In this document: positions 5,974 through 63,118 of the stretch, in pieces
Layout: the number at the start of each line of letters is the position of its first letter
Position numbering within the stretch: the first letter of the stretch is position 1
Source of the DNA: Solidesulfovibrio magneticus RS-1
GTDB taxonomy: Bacteria; Desulfobacterota; Desulfovibrionia; Desulfovibrionales; Desulfovibrionaceae
Direction of reading: 5' to 3'
NCBI RefSeq assembly: GCF_000010665.1
Contig: NC_012796.1
Coordinates: 2,819,501-2,883,500 of the forward strand
DNA length: 64,000 bases
Program-made: the position numbers and the translations under genes
The notes under the pieces: model-generated
The model's database searches: none
Told to the model about the DNA's origin: nothing
The model's input: the letters and a program-made list of their open reading frames with translations, nothing else

Positions 5974-7755
5974 TCAGGACGGCAGGGCCGCCATGGTTGC
6001 CTCGCCCCGCAGTTCCTCGATGAGCGCCTCGATGACCCGGGCCTGCTCGGACAGGTCGGCCAGGGACTGGGCCGCCTGCTCCATGGCCTCCGCCGTGTCC
6101 TGGGACACCGACCCCACGGCGGCCACGGCCGCCTCGATGGAATCCGAGGCCGCTGACTGCTGCTGGGAGGCGGCGGCGATGGAGCGCACCTGATCCGAAG
6201 CCGTCTCCACAAGCCCCACGATGGTGGCCAGGGCCTGGCCGGACTCCCCGGCCAGTTGGTTGGCCGATTCGATGGCGGTCACGGCTTCGCCCACGCCGGA
6301 CACGCTACGGCGCGCCCCGGCCTGGATGTCGCGCACGGCCTGGCCGACCTCGGCCGTGGCGGCCATGGTTTTTTCGGCCAGCTTGCGGACCTCGTCGGCG
6401 ACCACGGCAAAGCCGCGCCCGGCTTCGCCGGCCCGGGCCGCTTCAATGGCGGCATTGAGCGCCAGAAGATTGGTTTGGTCGGCGATGTCGGCAATGACGC
6501 CAAGTACCCGGCCGATGCCCTCAGCCTGACCGCCCAGGGCGTCCATGTCCCGGGCCAGGGTTTGGGCCTTGTCCCGGGCCGTGCCGATGCCGGCCATGGC
6601 CCGACGCACCACGTCGGCGCCGGCGCTGGCCTTGTCCCGGGCCGAGGCGGCGGTGGCGTCGGCCGTGGCCGCGCTTTGGGCCACGTCGAGCACGGTAGCG
6701 CTCATCTCGCCCATGGACGCGGCGGCTTCGGCCAGACGCGAGGACTGCTCGCGAGCGCCATCGGTGGCCCGGGCCACATGGCCCGACAAGGCGGCGGCGG
6801 CGGCGGACAGGGTTCCGGCCACCTCGGACAGGCGCTCGGCGGCCTGCTGCATGCCGTCACGGCGGGCACGCTCGGCGGCCAGACGCAGCCCGTCGGCCTC
6901 TTCCATGGCCTGGCAAGCCTTGGCCGCCTCGCTGGCCGCCTCCTCGCCCCGGGCCGTGGCCGCGGCGATGTTGTCGCGAAGGGCGGCGAGCATGCGGCGC
7001 ATGGAGGCGGCCAGCTCGGCGATTTCGTCCCGGCCGGACACGTCCAGGCGGGCTTCGAGATCGCCTTCGGCCACGGCCTTGGCAAAGGCCACGCCCTTGC
7101 CCAGGGGGCGGGTGATGGACAGGGTGATGACGATGCCCAGAGCGGCGGAAAACAGCAGACAGGCGGCCACGGCCGCCGTCAGGAAAATCGTGCGCCGGTG
7201 GACGTCTTCCAGGGAGGACACGGCCAGGGCGTCGGCCTGGCTTCGGCTGCGCTCAAGAAGAAAGCCGAGCGCGTCCATGGCTTTTTTCTGGGAGAGCTGG
7301 GACATGCCGATGGAGAGCGTGAGCGCGTTGCTGCGTTTGCCGGCGGCGACCAGCTCAAGGACTTGGGCATTGGTCTTGCGCCAGGCGGCCAGGGCTTCGT
7401 TGAAGGCCTTCCACTGGGCGGTCTCTTCCTCATCCAGGGGCATGCGGTCGATAATCTCGCGCCCGGCGTCGGCCAAGGCTAGGCCGGCCCGAAGATTCTC
7501 GCGCTGGCGCTCGAATTCCTTGGAGTTGGCCAGTTCCGGCACGAGGATGGTGCGCTCGGCCGACTGGGCGGCAAGCAGGCCTTCCTTGACCATGCCCAGA
7601 CCGGCCACGCACGGCAAGGCGTCGCCCGTCACCCGGGACAAAGCCGACCCGAGGCCGACCAGGCCCTGATAGCCGAGAACGCCGACGACCAGGGTGAGCA
7701 GCGCGGTGACGCACACGGAGGTGAACAACTTGACGCCAACCTTGACGTTGCCCAT
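5974..7755 (-). CDS. Methyl-accepting chemotaxis protein (two-TM, periplasmic sensor)
   Basis: Transmembrane chemoreceptor of 593 residues. A first membrane helix lies at about 10-30. A periplasmic helical sensor of about 150 residues follows, probably a four-helix bundle given its length and helical pattern. The second helix is at about 190-212, then a HAMP segment ([25 protein letters not shown]). The signalling domain has the conserved tip starting at D426 ([38 protein letters not shown]). The ligand cannot be predicted. No CheB/CheR pentapeptide is obvious at the C-terminus (…[10 protein letters not shown]). It stands alone between ilvE and a TPR gene. Confidence 0.93.
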
Positions 7756-39751: not shown

Positions 39752-41881
39752 ATGAACGACCATAGCGCCACGCCGTCGCCCGGCGCGCCAACCCTGTTGC
39801 TGGGCCTGGCACTCAGTGTTTGCCTCCTCGTCGTCGCCTTCTTCCCCAACTTATATATTGCCATTCCGGTAGCCGTTGTTGGCTGCATTGCAGCCGTTGT
39901 CCTCGCTTCACGGGTCAACGCTCCCATACGGATGCTGTATCAGGGGTTGTTGACAATCAACAATGATCCAACTGCGTTTCATCTTGACGACGTCAATGCC
40001 TGGAAAGCACTTGGACCGCTTGGTGAACAGGCCGCCCAGGCCCTTTCCTGCAACATGTTGCGGCGCGAGTATTACCGAGGCGCGGTCAATGCCGTCAGCA
40101 CGCCGTTTTTCATCACCAACAAGGACGGCATCATCACCCATTGCAGCCAGAGTTTGTGCGACATGTTGCGCAAATCCAAAAATGATGTTGTGGGAAAGAC
40201 CGTCAGCCAGGCCGTCTATAATAAAACCGGCATCTCGCTTACGGAGAAATGCTTAAGCGAAGGCAAGGCGTTGCAGGCCGAACGCGACCTGACCCTGTGG
40301 GACGGCCGCATTCTGCCTTGCTTTTTCTTTGTCGCCTGCTTTCACGGCCTGCGCGGCGACCTGCTCGGTGCGGTGGCCACGATGACCGACCTGACGCCGC
40401 TGCGGGCCAAGCAGGAAGAACTGGAGCACGCCCAGGCCGAACTGCGCAACCTTGGCGGCGAAATCAACGAACTGGCCCAACGCGTGGCCTCGGCTTCCGA
40501 AGAGCTGTCCGCCTCCTCCGACGAACAGGCCCGGGGCGCCCAACAACAAAAGGGGCAGTCCGACGCCGTGGCCACGGCTATGGAAGAAATGACGGCCACG
40601 GTCATGGAAGTGGCCAAAAACGCCGCCCAGACTTCCGATGCCGCCGAAAGCGCCAACACGGCTGCGGAAACCGGCTCGGTGGAAGTCCGGGAAGCCGTGT
40701 CCGGCATTAAGGCCGTGGCCGAATCAGCCGGCAAGCTCGGCCAGGTGCTCACTTCCCTGGACGGCCAGGCTGCCGAGATCGGCCGCATCATCAGCGTCAT
40801 CAACGACATCGCCGACCAGACCAACCTGCTGGCACTCAACGCCGCCATCGAGGCGGCCCGGGCCGGCGACGCCGGTCGCGGCTTCGCCGTGGTCGCCGAC
40901 GAGGTGCGAAAACTGGCCGAAAAGACCATGACCGCCACCAAGGAAGTGGAAAAATCCATCCGCGAAATCCAGGACGGCTCCCAGCACGCCGTGGCCTCCA
41001 TGCAGGAGACCGAAGCCCGGGTGGCGGCCAGCACCGAGGCCACCCACAAGGCCGGCGAATCCCTGGAACGCATCATGGCCCGCATCCGCGAGGTCAACGG
41101 GCAGGTCAGCCAGATCGCCACGGCCGCCGAACAGCAATCCGCCGCTGCCGAAGAGATCAACCGCAACATTGAAGTCATCGCCCATGTGGCCGCCGAGGCC
41201 GACGAAGGCGCGGGCCAGACCGCCCAGGCCACGCGCGAACTGGCCGAACTGGCCAATTCCCTGCTTACCCTGGCCACGACCTTTGCCCAGCGTCAATCAA
41301 ACGCCGTCCACCTCCGGGAATCCAGCGGCAACATGAAGGGCATCCTGCCCAAGCTCATGCAAAAATTTATCAAGGACCAGTACGGCGAGGCTGTCTATGA
41401 AGCCATGCAGGAAGATATGGGTCACCCCACCTTCCTGCCCACCCAGAATTACCCGGATCAGGTGCTGCGCCAGATGGCCGAACTGGCGGCTCAAAAAGCC
41501 GGCAAGACCGTTAAGGACGTTTTCCTGGTTCTTGGCCGCTACACCATCAAGGGCTTCCACAAGCACTACCCGCGCTACTTCAAGGGCGACACCCTCAAGG
41601 AATTCTATCTGACCATGAATGACACCCACGCCCGGCTCACCAAGGACATGCCCGGACTCATGCCCCCCCGCTTCACCTACGAAGACAAGGGCAACCGTCT
41701 GATCATGACGTATATGTCCAAGCGCGGCTACCCGGAATACTACGAGGGCATCTTGCGCGGAGCCGCGGAGTTCTTCAAGGAATCCGTGGATATCACCGTG
41801 TCATACAACGACCCCCACACGGCCCGGGCCGAGATCGTCTTCCGTTCGCCGCAAAAAGGTCCCAAGGCTCTTGGAGCCTAA
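39752..41881 (+). CDS. Methyl-accepting chemotaxis protein with PAS and C-terminal H-NOX heme domain
   Basis: A 709-residue receptor. Two close hydrophobic segments (residues 12-52) anchor it with almost no periplasmic part. A PAS domain (about 110-220: [23 protein letters not shown]) precedes the signalling domain, whose tip starts near D355 ([24 protein letters not shown]). Residues 528-709 are a full H-NOX (HNOB) domain, starting [19 protein letters not shown]. The proximal heme ligand is H626 in MNDTHARL, 98 residues into the domain (H102 in the Thermoanaerobacter protein), and the propionate-binding YxSxR motif is Y654-M-S656-K-R658. It should bind heme and sense NO or O2 to steer swimming. 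Ligand choice cannot be told from sequence. Confidence 0.93.
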
Positions 41882-46865: not shown

Positions 46866-47972
46866 TTATTGGTTTTCCGTGGCCTTGGTGAGCCGGGTCA
46901 CGTTGCTTTTGGTGAAAAACCCGTCAAACCCGTCATAGCGCTCAATGTACTCGTTGACCAGCATGGTGCGCGGCGACATGGCTGAAAAAATCTGTTTGAG
47001 GCCTTCCTCCCGGGAGCCGACCAGCTCCGAAAGAAAGCCCATGCCGTCGGCGACAAGGCCGGCCACCACGTCTTCGATGCCGTCGGCCGTAAAGGCCATG
47101 TGATGGGGCCGCAGGCCGTAGTTGGCGATAAACGCCTCGGTGGGGCCGCCGTCTCCCCCGCTGTCCGGAGAAGCGATGCCCGAGGTGAACACCTGGGCGT
47201 AGTCGCCGTCGCGAAGCCGGGCCACGTTGGTGATGGAATTGAGCGATTCGACGTAGACCGCGAAATCAAAGCGGTAGTTGGTCAGTTCCAGAAACTCCAC
47301 GATGGCCGCGTCGCGGTGGGCGGCCCGCACCCGCGTGGCCACGTGGTCCAGGCCGCCGATGCGGGCGAGATAGGGACGCGCGGCGGCGTCCGGCCCGGCC
47401 GGAGCCAGGGGCAGGAGGTTGGACCGGCCATGGACGTAGGCTCCGGGACGGCCGTTCCACTGGATAAACCCCAGGGCGTTGCCGGTATGGGCCGAAGGTT
47501 TGGTCTCGATGTAGGAAAAGACGTTGGTGACCACGGGCTCGGGGGTGGCGAAGGCGACTCCCCGGCCACGCTGGATGGACACGTAACGGGCCAGGTCGGG
47601 GCAGTCGAAAACAAAGGTTTCCAGACGGCCGGGGGCGGCTCCGGCGGTTTTGTGGCCGCCGTTGTAGGCGACAAAGGGATTGGGTTGGCCGGCCGGTCGG
47701 CTTTTGAGCAGAAAATCCGCGCCTTCGAGATCGCGCAGCAGGATTGCCGGGCCGCCGCCAGGGCTCAAGGGATGGTCCAGGGCGGCCTCGAAGCGCAGGC
47801 TCGTGCCGCCAAGGAGTTCCTCGGCCGCCGGCACGAGGTCGGCCTCGGCCACGTTTATGACCACGGCGGCCAGATTACCGACCAGCCCGTCGAGGCCGTC
47901 CTTGCGCCGACGGGTCAAGGCTCTCTCGACTTCCCGCAGCAATTTTGCGTCGTCGTTGACAAAAGCTTCCAT
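46866..47972 (-). CDS. 4-hydroxyphenylpyruvate dioxygenase-like VOC protein
   Basis: A 368-residue protein of the vicinal-oxygen-chelate superfamily with two repeats, like HPPD or hydroxymandelate synthase. The metal ligands are in place: His in GGLDHVATRV, His in LRPHHMAFTADGI and Glu in MLVNEYIERYDGFDGFFTKSNV. The last segment, which in true HPPD forms the substrate gate, differs from the canonical GFGxGNF, so substrate is uncertain. HPPD needs oxygen, odd for an anaerobe; oxygen consumption/defence or another 2-oxo-acid reaction is possible. It starts 26 bp after priA and shares its strand. Confidence 0.75.
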   Translation of the reverse strand: MEAFVNDDAKLLREVERALTRRRKDGLDGLVGNLAAVVINVAEADLVPAAEELLGGTSLRFEAALDHPLSPGGGPAILLRDLEGADFLLKSRPAGQPNPFVAYNGGHKTAGAAPGRLETFVFDCPDLARYVSIQRGRGVAFATPEPVVTNVFSYIETKPSAHTGNALGFIQWNGRPGAYVHGRSNLLPLAPAGPDAAARPYLARIGGLDHVATRVRAAHRDAAIVEFLELTNYRFDFAVYVESLNSITNVARLRDGDYAQVFTSGIASPDSGGDGGPTEAFIANYGLRPHHMAFTADGIEDVVAGLVADGMGFLSELVGSREEGLKQIFSAMSPRTMLVNEYIERYDGFDGFFTKSNVTRLTKATENQ

Positions 47973-59537: not shown

Positions 59538-60188
59538 ATGCGCCTGACCGATTCCGATCTCCTGCGCGACCTCGACAAACCCGAATTTGCCGCCGTGCGG
59601 GCCGCTTTCGTGCCCCGGCACTTCCCCAAAGGCCGGCAGGTGTACGCCCCGCGCGAAGCCCGCAATTCCCTGTTCATCGTGGCCAAGGGCCGGGCCAGGG
59701 TCTACCTGTCCTACAAGGACAAAGAATTCACCATGGCCATCCTGGACGTGGGCGATGTCTACACCACCCACACCCGGGCCTCGGTGGAAGCCCTGGACGA
59801 CCTGACCATCCTCGTGGCCGAGTTGGCCGCCGTGCGCCGTTTCCTGGCCGACATGCCGGCGCTGACCTCCTCCATGGTCAAGGTGCTCGGCGATCTCTTG
59901 TCCCACGCCTTCTCGGTCATTGACGGCCTGGCCTTTCTCGACGTGCGGAAACGCCTCATCCAGCTGCTGCTCTACGAAGCCGAACGGGCCAGCGCCGACG
60001 CCGAGCACATCCTGTGCTTCTCCCATGGGCTCAACATCGAACAGTTGGCCACCATTGTCGGCTCCTCCCGCCAGACCGTGTCGTCCCTCTTAAATGTCCT
60101 CGAACGCGACGGCGTCATCGAGATGCGCGCCCGGGGCGTCATCTGCCTGCCCGACTTGGCCCGCCTGGAAGCCCTGGTCCACGAGTAG
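59538..60188 (+). CDS. cooA: CO-sensing Crp/Fnr-family activator CooA
   Basis: Heme-containing homodimeric regulator, 216 residues. The N-terminal cyclic-nucleotide-like heme domain has the pattern LFIVAKGRARVYLSYKDKEFTMAILDVGDVYTTHTRASVEA; H78 matches heme-ligand His77 of Rhodospirillum rubrum CooA. The position of that protein's redox-switch Cys75 is threonine (T76) here. The C-terminal helix-turn-helix reads NIEQLATIVGSSRQTVSSLLNVLERDGVI, very close to CooA (IGSSRQT). It sits 8 bp after the HD-GYP gene and directly before cooS, whose leader carries an exact CooA-type palindrome. The match rests on these motifs and the neighbours. Confidence 0.9.
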   Translation: MRLTDSDLLRDLDKPEFAAVRAAFVPRHFPKGRQVYAPREARNSLFIVAKGRARVYLSYKDKEFTMAILDVGDVYTTHTRASVEALDDLTILVAELAAVRRFLADMPALTSSMVKVLGDLLSHAFSVIDGLAFLDVRKRLIQLLLYEAERASADAEHILCFSHGLNIEQLATIVGSSRQTVSSLLNVLERDGVIEMRARGVICLPDLARLEALVHE

Positions 60189-60202
60189 TTTCAGAGCGCC
60201 TT

Positions 60203-60218
60203 TGTCGGCAATCTGACA
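60203..60218. promoter_or_regulatory. CooA-binding palindrome upstream of cooS
   Basis: TGTCG-GCAATC-TGACA; its complement reads TGTCA-GATTGC-CGACA, an exact fit to the TGTCA-N6-CGACA pattern reported for R. rubrum CooA sites. It is centred at 60210.5 in the 112-bp gap between cooA and cooS, 90 bp before the cooS ATG. A class II activator position (centre at -43.5) would place the start site near 60254. No better copy is seen near other genes in the window. Confidence 0.78.
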
Positions 60219-60300
60219 GACACGGTCGTCCCCGGATCGTAACCAAGGCCAAACGTCCGCGCGCGCCGGGTCCCCCGGCCTCGCGCCAAGGGAGGATGGC

Positions 60301-62211
60301 ATGGCCAAGGATACGAGAACCATCGAGGAACTGTCGCCGTGGGAAGATGCCCGCCGGATGCTTGCCAAGGCAAAGGACGAAGGCATCGCCACGGTCTGGG
60401 ACCGGTTGGCCGAACAGACGCCGCATTGCACCTTTTGCGACCAGGGGCTGACCTGCAACAAGTGCGTCATGGGGCCTTGCCGGGTGAACCCCAAGGGTCC
60501 CAAGCGCCAACTTGGCGTGTGCGGGGCCGACGGCGACCTGACCGTGGCCCGCAATTTCGGCCGGTTCGTGGCCGCCGGCGCGGCCTCCCATTCCGACCAC
60601 GGCCGCGATCTGCTGGAAGCCCTTGAATCCGTGGGCCAGGGCACGGCTCCGGGCTACGCCGTGCGCGACGCGGACAAGCTGGTCCGGCTGTGCGCCGAAG
60701 TCGGCATCGAAACCAAAGGCCTGGACGCTCCCGACCAGGCCAAGGCCCTGGCCGAGCACTTTTTCGAGGACTTCGGCACCCGCCGCCCCGCTCTGTCGCT
60801 GCTCTCCCGTGCCCCCAAAAAACGCCGGGAAATCTGGGACGCCGCCCGCTCCACCCCGCGCGGCATCGACCGCGAGTGCGTGGAAATGCTGCACCGCACC
60901 CACATGGGCGTGGACTGCGACCCGGTCTCCATCTGCCTGCACGCCGCACGCACGGCCCTGGCCGACGGCTGGGGCGGCTCCATGATCGGCACGGAACTGT
61001 CCGACATCCTTTTCGGCACGCCGCGTCCGGCCACGGTCGAGGCCAACCTCGGCGTGCTTCGCGCCGACAGCGTCAACATTCTGGTCCACGGCCACAGCCC
61101 GGTGGTCTCGGAAATGATCCTGGCCGCCGCCCGCGACCCGGAAATGGTCGCCAAGGCCAAGGCCGTGGGCGCGGCCGGGATCAACGTGGCCGGGCTTTGC
61201 TGCACCGGCAACGAGGTGCTCATGCGCCAGGGCGTGCCCCTGGCCGGCAACCACCTCATGACCGAGCTGGCCCTGGTCACCGGAGCCGTGGAGATGGTCG
61301 TGGCCGACTACCAGTGCGTCATGCCGAGCCTGGTGCAGATCGCTTCCTGCTACCACACCCGTTTCGTCTCCACCTCCGAAAAAGCCCGTTTCCCGGGCGG
61401 CACGCACCTGGAATTCACCCTGGAAAATGCCCGGGACAAGGCCCACGAGGCGGTGGAGCTGGCCATCGAGGCCTTCACCCGACGGGACGCCGGCCGGGTG
61501 GACATCCCGTCCGTCCCGGTGAGCCTGCGCACCGGCTATTCCAACGAAGCGGTCCTTGAGGCCCTGGGCGGTTCAGCCGAACCGCTGTTGGCCGCGATCA
61601 AGATCGGCCTAGTGCGCGGCGTGGTCGGCATCGTCGGCTGCAACAACCCCAAGCTGCCCCATGACGGGATTTTGACCGGGCTAGCCAAGGAACTCATCCG
61701 CCAGGACATCCTGGTGGTGGTCACGGGCTGCGCCACGGTGGCCATGGGCAAGGCCGGACTCATGACCACCGAAGGCCTGGAGCAGGCCGGGGTCGGGCTG
61801 GCCGAGTTCTGTTCCCGGTTCGATCTGCCGCCGGTGCTCCATGTCGGCAGCTGCGTGGACAACTCCCGCATCCTGGCCTTGTGCGGCCTGCTGGCCGATG
61901 CCCTGGGCGTGGACATCGCCGACCTGCCCGTGGCCGCCAGCGCGCCGGAGTGGTATTCGGAAAAAGCCGCCGCCATCGGACTTTACGCCGTGGCCAGCGG
62001 CATCATGACCCATCTGGGCCTGCCGCCCAACATCCTGGGCAGCGAACTGGTCACGGGCCTGGCCCTGGAAGGCTTGGAGGACGTCTTCGGCGCCACCTTC
62101 GTGGTCGAGCCCGACCCGGTCAAGGCGGCCGAGGCCATCAGCCGCCGCATCACGGCCAAGCGCCTGGCCCTGGGACTCAACGACCGTTTCGACGGCGCGG
62201 TTTTTTCTTAA
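60301..62211 (+). CDS. cooS: Anaerobic Ni-Fe-S carbon monoxide dehydrogenase, catalytic subunit
   Basis: Oxidises CO to CO2 (reversible) at the Ni-Fe-S C-cluster. 636 residues; GGAGGA precedes the start. B-cluster cysteines are C52, C55, C60 and C74 (spacing 3-5-14 as in other CooS). For the D-cluster, C43 and C46 form a CxxC; the usual second cysteine next to C52 is threonine, as described for D. vulgaris CODH with a [2Fe-2S] D-cluster. C-cluster ligands: SHSDHGRD, CCTGNEVLMRQG, GCNNPK, GCATVAMGKAG, GSCVDNSRI and APEWYSEKA. Electrons are passed to ferredoxin. cooC follows 4 bp later. Confidence 0.97.
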   Translation: MAKDTRTIEELSPWEDARRMLAKAKDEGIATVWDRLAEQTPHCTFCDQGLTCNKCVMGPCRVNPKGPKRQLGVCGADGDLTVARNFGRFVAAGAASHSDHGRDLLEALESVGQGTAPGYAVRDADKLVRLCAEVGIETKGLDAPDQAKALAEHFFEDFGTRRPALSLLSRAPKKRREIWDAARSTPRGIDRECVEMLHRTHMGVDCDPVSICLHAARTALADGWGGSMIGTELSDILFGTPRPATVEANLGVLRADSVNILVHGHSPVVSEMILAAARDPEMVAKAKAVGAAGINVAGLCCTGNEVLMRQGVPLAGNHLMTELALVTGAVEMVVADYQCVMPSLVQIASCYHTRFVSTSEKARFPGGTHLEFTLENARDKAHEAVELAIEAFTRRDAGRVDIPSVPVSLRTGYSNEAVLEALGGSAEPLLAAIKIGLVRGVVGIVGCNNPKLPHDGILTGLAKELIRQDILVVVTGCATVAMGKAGLMTTEGLEQAGVGLAEFCSRFDLPPVLHVGSCVDNSRILALCGLLADALGVDIADLPVAASAPEWYSEKAAAIGLYAVASGIMTHLGLPPNILGSELVTGLALEGLEDVFGATFVVEPDPVKAAEAISRRITAKRLALGLNDRFDGAVFS

Positions 62212-62215
62212 CGCT

Positions 62216-63118
62216 ATGAACGACAATCCTGTAAGCGCCCCGACCGCAGCCCGTTTGTCCCCGGGTTCCTGGAACGCTTTGACGCAGGGCCTGCCTAGTT
62301 CGGACGGCCAACTCAGGCGGCCGGTCAGAAAAATCGCCTTTGCCGGCAAGGGCGGCGTCGGCAAGACCGCCCTGGCCGCGCTTTTCGGCGACTGGCTGGC
62401 CCGGTCGGGGCAGGACGTGACACTCATTGACGCCGACACGGCCCTGTCGCTGGGCGCGGCCTGCGGTCTGGAACCGGCCGCCCTGCCCGCCTCCCTGGCC
62501 GAGCGCGAGGATCTCGTGCGGGAGCGCATCGGCGACGGCGTCTATCTCAACCTGACGCCCCGGGCGGACGATCTACCCGAGGCCATCCGCGTCGCCGTCC
62601 CGGTCGGCCACGGGCCGCTCTACGCCCCCCGCCCCGGGGCCAAGCGGCTGCTGGTCATGGGCGGGGTCAGCGGCGGCGGCGCGGGTTGCGCCTGCGCCGC
62701 CGGCCATCTGCTCCAGGCCATGCTGGCCCATGTCCTGACCGCCCGGGACGCTTGGACGCTCATAGACTGCGAAGCCGGGGTGGAACATCTGGGCCGGGGC
62801 ACGGTGGCCGATGTGGACGCCTTAGGCGTGGTCAGTGAAGCCTCGGCCCGGTCCCTGGCCGTGGCCGGACGGGTCGCGGCCATGGCCGGCCAGCTCGGGC
62901 TGACCCGGCAAGTCCTGGTTGTCACCGGGGTCGATCAGGCCGGGCTGGCCGCGTTGGCCGCCCTGCCGCCAACGCTGCCGGATGTCCGGGTCGCCTTCCC
63001 CTTCCTGCCAGGGCTGGCCGCCCGCCAGGCGACCACAGGCAGCGTGCTGTCCCTGCCCGAAGTCGGCTTGGCCGACGCCGCCTGCGCCGCCTTGGCCGAG
63101 GCCTTGGGACGGGTCTAA
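62216..63118 (+). CDS. cooC: CO dehydrogenase nickel-insertion accessory ATPase CooC
   Basis: MinD/ParA-type P-loop ATPase that helps load nickel into CooS. 300 residues. The P-loop is G44-T51 (GKGGVGKT), the second aspartate region is TLIDADTAL, and the metal-binding pair is C158-x-C160 (GCACAAGH) in the dimer interface. The P-loop normally lies near residue 10 in CooC; here a 37-residue extension (SAPTAARLSPGSWNALTQGL and onward) precedes it, and no in-frame ATG closer to the P-loop exists. Translation is probably coupled to cooS. Confidence 0.93.
   Translation: MNDNPVSAPTAARLSPGSWNALTQGLPSSDGQLRRPVRKIAFAGKGGVGKTALAALFGDWLARSGQDVTLIDADTALSLGAACGLEPAALPASLAEREDLVRERIGDGVYLNLTPRADDLPEAIRVAVPVGHGPLYAPRPGAKRLLVMGGVSGGGAGCACAAGHLLQAMLAHVLTARDAWTLIDCEAGVEHLGRGTVADVDALGVVSEASARSLAVAGRVAAMAGQLGLTRQVLVVTGVDQAGLAALAALPPTLPDVRVAFPFLPGLAARQATTGSVLSLPEVGLADAACAALAEALGRV

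Follow-up and report, generated by a model that had tools for sequence, protein, structure and literature searches.

A chemoreceptor with a C-terminal H-NOX domain in Solidesulfovibrio magneticus represents a conserved family of the Desulfovibrionales

The window, by which we mean the whole stretch of 64,000 nucleotides of the Solidesulfovibrio magneticus RS-1 genome that was analyzed, encodes a chemoreceptor whose Pfam domains follow each other in the order PAS (residues 107 to 215), MCPsignal (295 to 479; E = 3.8e−50), and HNOB (529 to 683) (Table 1). The HNOB match (PF07700) covers the entire model (positions 1 to 163 of 163) with 128.5 bits, against a cut-off of 25.5 (E = 2.9e−37). The closest solved structures by sequence were those of the H-NOX of Caldanaerobacter (Thermoanaerobacter) tengcongensis (Tt; phmmer, best chains E = 3e−22 to 5e−22), where H102 and Y131/S133/R135 align with H626 and the YMSKR motif. 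The AlphaFold2 (AF2) model of the H-NOX domain alone (pLDDT 86.5) matched the Ct and Tt H-NOX crystal structures with TM scores of 0.82 to 0.86 (Foldseek), the value for the O2-binding Caldanaerobacter H-NOX being 0.85. Pfam, the alignment to Tt H-NOX, and the fold match thus bear out the original prediction of an MCP signaling domain followed by a complete H-NOX domain with H626 and the YxSxR motif. The PAS domain and the minimal periplasmic part that it described were also recovered: the N-terminal helices of the AF2 model (11 to 30 and 34 to 71) form a membrane hairpin whose loop is about 3 residues long (hydropathy segment 9 to 59). Helices 215 to 370 and 374 to 523, separated by a break at residues 371 to 373, form the MCP hairpin, which carries methylation-like sequence motifs at residues 247, 275, and 457. 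Pfam gave no hemerythrin match in the 709-residue protein at E ≤ 1.

The gene stands alone, 93 bases after a gene for a GH3 hydrolase and 23 bases before one for a glycosyltransferase, and no sigma-70-like promoter was found near it. Production of a free H-NOX from an internal start at M528 was rejected, since a Shine-Dalgarno-like run precedes this Met in only 4 of 99 genes. Elsewhere, the window encodes a second, ordinary MCP (4HB sensor, HAMP, MCP; 5977 to 7755, minus strand). Positions 46869 to 47972 (minus strand) encode a protein with a weak match, far below the cut-off (E = 0.003), to 4-hydroxyphenylpyruvate dioxygenase, an O2-using family here found near the receptor in an anaerobe. 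Positions 59538 to 63118 hold a gene for a Crp-family regulator, which could be a candidate CooA-type heme CO sensor, followed by those for the catalytic subunit of an anaerobic CO dehydrogenase (TIGR01702) and a CooC-like ATPase.

Table 1. Parts of the H-NOX chemoreceptor gene (positions in the window)
Feature	Positions	Strand	Evidence
Whole gene: chemoreceptor of TM hairpin, PAS, MCP hairpin, and H-NOX; 709 aa, ATG start	39752..41881	+	ORF list; Pfam domains; 98 MCP-linked relatives of equal order
Membrane anchor (aa ~11-53): hydrophobic helix pair joined by a very short loop, without periplasmic domain	39782..39910	+	AF2 helices; hydropathy
PAS domain (aa ~106-218), with D213 of the "DLT" motif at its end leading into the coiled coil	40067..40405	+	Pfam PAS_9, E = 9e−10; 88/93 relatives
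Antiparallel coiled-coil hairpin of the MCP part (aa ~214-523), with its tip near aa 360-376	40391..41320	+	Pfam MCPsignal; AF2 helices
C-terminal H-NOX (HNOB) domain (aa 528-709), first residues MKGILPKL	41333..41878	+	Pfam HNOB; phmmer to Tt H-NOX; Foldseek
H626, predicted proximal heme-iron ligand (Tt H102)	41627..41629	+	Alignment; His in 100/101 fusion rows
YMSKR (aa 654-658), YxSxR heme-propionate motif	41711..41725	+	All three motif residues kept in 101/101 fusion rows
Y663, distal-pocket Tyr (Tt Y140), a residue associated with O2 binding	41738..41740	+	Tyr in 99/101 fusion rows

A profile search detected HNOB in 106 of 348 Desulfovibrionales genomes, including every searched genome of the same genus. 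The genome of the window (5,315,620 bases in 3 contigs) has a single HNOB gene, whose H-NOX domain is 97% identical to that of S. magneticus MAGs. We fetched nearly all HNOB loci of the Desulfovibrionales, and the MCP domain preceded H-NOX in all 98 MCP-linked copies (a raw tally of 114 such copies includes duplicate records). The reverse order occurred in none of them. When 395 genomes sampled across the phylum were searched, the HNOB matches outside the fusion family were stand-alone H-NOX proteins with frames of about 190 to 250 residues; the N-terminal order was found neither among the fetched copies nor in this sample. This profile-based check of the domain order shows that the C-terminal H-NOX chemoreceptor is a real, conserved, and order-wide architecture, present in about 100 genomes and far beyond chance. 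The reversed order on which the original prediction built a second C-terminal gas-sensing design is thus genuine, while its picture of one odd protein gives way to a family spanning the order. Carriage by viruses or plasmids was rejected, as the gene had no relative in phages or viral contigs and its plasmid matches were only distant (<60% identity).

Two members of the collection have unusual frames. A stand-alone H-NOX with the distal Tyr (L123, reverse strand, 5995 to 6534 of the reverse complement) is probably a broken or split fusion, because it is nested inside the fusion clade and an MCP-like fragment ORF lies just upstream. The frame of 1,806 residues in L081 most likely reflects open sequence that extends in front of the real start codon and not a larger protein.

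The residues expected around a heme are strongly conserved. Among the 101 fusion rows of the alignment, which include two duplicates, the proximal His is present in all but one, and YxSxR and the equivalent of Tt P115 are invariant. At the position of Tt Y140, both rows that lack Tyr have Phe, whereas all seven unrelated stand-alone H-NOX proteins of the phylum have Met, Leu, or Val. The original prediction included neither this Tyr nor the che gene neighborhoods of relatives. The deviating rows come from two relatives of one genus (L150 and L152), both with Phe for the distal Tyr and L150 also with Tyr for the heme-ligand His; these changes possibly reflect a loss or alteration of heme or gas binding. 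Reviews associate the distal Tyr with O2 binding and with fusion to MCPs (PMC8738867 and PMC9814294). Two residues that flank it in Tt H-NOX, W9 and N74, are replaced in the window protein by M536 and T598 (M/A/T and T/S in the family), so that the surroundings of the Tyr differ from those in Tt and the chemistry of the pocket may differ too. The definition of the O2-type group in the reviews does not require W9 and N74. Another trait of the O2-type group of obligate anaerobes, an H-NOX that comes first and is fused to a C-terminal effector, is absent from the window protein and from the 98 MCP-linked copies. Judged from the pocket residues, an O2-binding heme with altered tuning would be the simplest reading. 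Because Tt H-NOX, with such a Tyr, also binds NO and CO besides O2 (PMC9814294), the physiological ligand can only be inferred.

The geometry of the receptor shows how a sensor at this end could work. The turn near residue 372 pairs residue 213 with approximately residue 531, which therefore puts the end of PAS level with the start of H-NOX at the base of the coiled coil. Since the MCP hairpin returns the C terminus to the base, the reversal is topologically mild; the C-terminal sensor sits where an N-terminal one would, which makes the order mechanically reasonable. In 93 of 94 relatives, the tip motif starts 147 residues after the PAS-terminal Asp, and in 92 of 94 (94 of 96 in another count) the H-NOX Met follows the tip-motif start by 166 to 169 residues. 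This near-fixed spacing and the return helix CC2, modeled as continuous to residue 523, would fit helical coupling at the hairpin base. AF2 modeling, as proposed in the original prediction, gave the helix break used for this pairing, but the model of the whole protein is of low quality (pLDDT 63, pTM 0.31), too poor for reading how H-NOX docks on PAS or the coil.

The two ends of the protein evolve differently. Median identity to the window protein across the family is 17% for the TM part, 37% for PAS, 58% for H-NOX, and 92% for the tip. With the tip and H-NOX kept and the TM part and PAS variable, H-NOX appears to be the input that stays constant, and the N-terminal one to be exchangeable. 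PAS was not detected in 5 of 93 relatives, and at least two (L054 and L097) have a stretch of about 300 residues between two TM segments in its place. The claim that all sensing is cytoplasmic holds for the window protein but not for these two relatives, with their extra input between the TM segments. The combination of two signals, also suggested at the outset, is plausible given how widespread PAS is, although the candidate ligand residues of PAS, H130 and C196, are lineage-specific: position 130 is a His in no more than 31 of the 94 rows of the family and is invariant among close relatives only. A role of PAS as a second heme sensor via H130 is thus not supported.

The gene neighborhoods of relatives link the receptor to chemotaxis genes. 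In 53 of 98 fusion loci, the receptor gene heads a che cluster, with cheA directly after it on the same strand; these loci come from two families and 9 of 22 genera. Two layouts recur: the receptor gene followed by cheA and cheB, and the receptor gene followed by a soluble MCP-signal protein (here x603), cheY, and cheA, with cheW and cheB where seen. Since there are nearly 60 MCP genes but no more than 4 cheA genes in the genome of the window, the adjacency in relatives exceeds the expectation for a random MCP, in a count that ignores kinship. H-NOX and x603 are present together in 47 genomes, against an expectation of 24 (P ~ 5e−10, again ignoring kinship). The x603 proteins, which are soluble and about 600 residues long, occur in 78 of 348 genomes of the Desulfovibrionales; they have MCP-signal cores with a degenerate tip and no recognizable sensor domain. 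Their frames lie at L187:12662-14470 (G000:C2, ~2.668 Mb, in the genome of the window), L171:15667-17475, and L172:15514-17388. Those of L171 and L187 have two MCP-signal stretches, and the gene often lies between the H-NOX receptor gene and cheA.

In the window's own genus, the receptor gene adjoins no che gene. The genome of the window nevertheless has, at ~2.66 Mb of G000:C2, a block x603-cheA-cheR-cheB-CYTH-(clpS)-clpA-(aat), without an H-NOX receptor, that is syntenic to loci L170 to L172 of relatives, in which CYTH and/or clpS-clpA-aat genes come after the che genes (clp and aat named by sequence resemblance). The CheA of this block is 58% identical to that of L171 over 725 columns, and the cluster holds CheR and a nearby CheD. 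The orphan receptor would then feed this syntenic che cluster located elsewhere in the genome.

We consider it rather likely that the gene encodes a membrane-anchored chemoreceptor that senses in the cytoplasm, with a C-terminal heme H-NOX of the O2-binding type as gas sensor. The H-NOX domain is predicted to bind heme, with O2, or possibly NO, as the ligand. It would hang from the end of the return helix of the folded-back MCP hairpin, at the receptor base and level with the end of PAS. Binding of gas to the ferrous heme would change H-NOX, which could exert a push or a twist on the coiled-coil base beside the PAS output and so alter CheA activity. We infer O2 rather than NO as the signal, and the direction of signaling likewise; the likely behavior would be avoidance of O2 by an anaerobe. 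More tentatively, the receptor may be the ancestral resident receptor of a Desulfovibrionales che cluster, with O2 as the native input of a CheA pathway and with H-NOX docking on PAS and coil as in soluble guanylate cyclase, attached from the opposite end of the polypeptide. Such docking is suggested by the shared level of the PAS end and the H-NOX start at the hairpin base; we hold this extended proposal to be possible but doubtful.

The domain could instead be physiologically a sensor of NO, steering cells from or towards this gas, with the distal Tyr only tuning affinity. H-NOX domains bind NO as a rule, that of Tt included (PMC9814294), and with W9 and N74 not kept, O2 may be stabilized less than in Tt H-NOX. 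The near-universal Tyr of the fusions, which stand-alone proteins of the same phylum lack, argues for O2, as does the view of MCP-fused H-NOX domains of anaerobes as O2 sensors (PMC8738867), making an NO receptor unlikely. A report of redox state or CO by the H-NOX heme, or by PAS, would accord with the prevalence of PAS in the family and with the anaerobic CO dehydrogenase gene about 18 kb away in the window, CO probably being a metabolite of the organism. Yet no conserved link was seen between the receptor gene and CO genes, and H130 and C196 of PAS are lineage-specific whereas the H-NOX ligand residues are nearly invariant; we regard this option as very improbable.

The gas-sensing receptor might also control a CheA pathway for a behavior other than flagellar taxis, considering that Desulfovibrio vulgaris needed only one of three CheA proteins for soft-agar motility (PMC3944678) and that the genome of the window encodes four. 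The associated clusters nevertheless contain CheB, CheW, and CheY and, in this genome, CheR and the nearby CheD, a standard adaptation set, and taxis is not the output only in a scenario we would not expect. That H-NOX is a mere passenger, fused yet nonsignaling or degenerate, could be proposed from L150 and L152, but the functional residues of the remaining rows, the near-fixed spacing to the hairpin tip, and the order-wide retention leave this scarcely credible.

The architecture consists of known parts rearranged, since H-NOX chemoreceptors and chemoreceptors with a C-terminal sensor are both known kinds. The reviews searched give only the N-terminal order and do not include C-terminal H-NOX in chemoreceptors, and H-NOX is absent altogether from a 2026 review of aerotaxis. 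The extent of the family, the near-universal O2-type Tyr, the near-fixed spacing that puts H-NOX at the level of PAS, and the association with che clusters seem not to be described in the papers searched. An isolated Desulfovibrio domain, "Dd H-NOX(728-899)," was reportedly purified and studied earlier, as the isolated domain only (Marletta laboratory and patents); its range fits the C-terminal H-NOX of relatives of about 897 residues such as L054 (727 to 897) and L097 (727 to 892). An early domain survey (Iyer et al. 2003) may list the MCP-to-H-NOX order. In anaerobic sulfate reducers, the family would add to DcrH a second metal-based chemoreceptor with C-terminal gas sensing, and it offers a test of MCP control by a C-terminal sensor, with a concrete stimulus hypothesis for a che pathway. 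O2-directed swimming is of particular interest in S. magneticus, a magnetotactic sulfate reducer.

The closest known systems include the clostridial and Thermoanaerobacter H-NOX-MCP proteins (Ct/Tt Tar4), of which the window receptor would be a C-terminal counterpart. They share the distal Tyr, the proximal His, YxSxR, a membrane-anchored MCP, and an obligately anaerobic host, but their H-NOX is N-terminal, whereas the window protein has it at the C terminus, with W9 and N74 replaced and PAS added. Our control for the N-terminal order, Tt H-NOX and one Acetoanaerobium gene, bears out the predicted reversal: the Acetoanaerobium protein (L153) has H-NOX, a TM hairpin, and MCP in that order, its short TM hairpin resembling that of the window protein. 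In an H-NOX tree of 35 rows, the C-terminal fusions cluster together, on a branch separate from the Tar4 type and apart from stand-alone domains, beside two N-terminal fusions; the sister relation to these two has low support (85/64), and one of their rows is long. Either one origin of the O2-type domain with a later swap of the fusion end or two separate fusions would account for this. Stand-alone H-NOX proteins with a partner kinase or cyclase (Shewanella, Nostoc, and the rest of the phylum) have the same fold and heme motif but are separate polypeptides of a distinct clade, and the seven tested from the phylum lack the distal Tyr. In the Azospirillum MCPs Tlp1 and Aer, an input domain is likewise appended after the signaling hairpin (PMC13401364), but this PilZ domain binds c-di-GMP and not a gas. 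DcrH of D. vulgaris, for which negative aerotaxis was proposed (PMC9388753 and PMC13401364), belongs to the same bacterial order and also has a gas or redox sensor after the MCP domain. It differs in its nonheme diiron hemerythrin, HAMP, and periplasmic domain, compared with the heme-type H-NOX, PAS, and absence of a periplasmic domain in the window protein, which would be its heme parallel. The likeness to DcrH drawn in the original prediction is fair: the genome of the window itself has two MCP frames with hemerythrin after the MCP domain (G000:C2, 4139637 to 4140584 and 3265130 to 3266422), so that heme and diiron C-terminal gas sensors coexist there.
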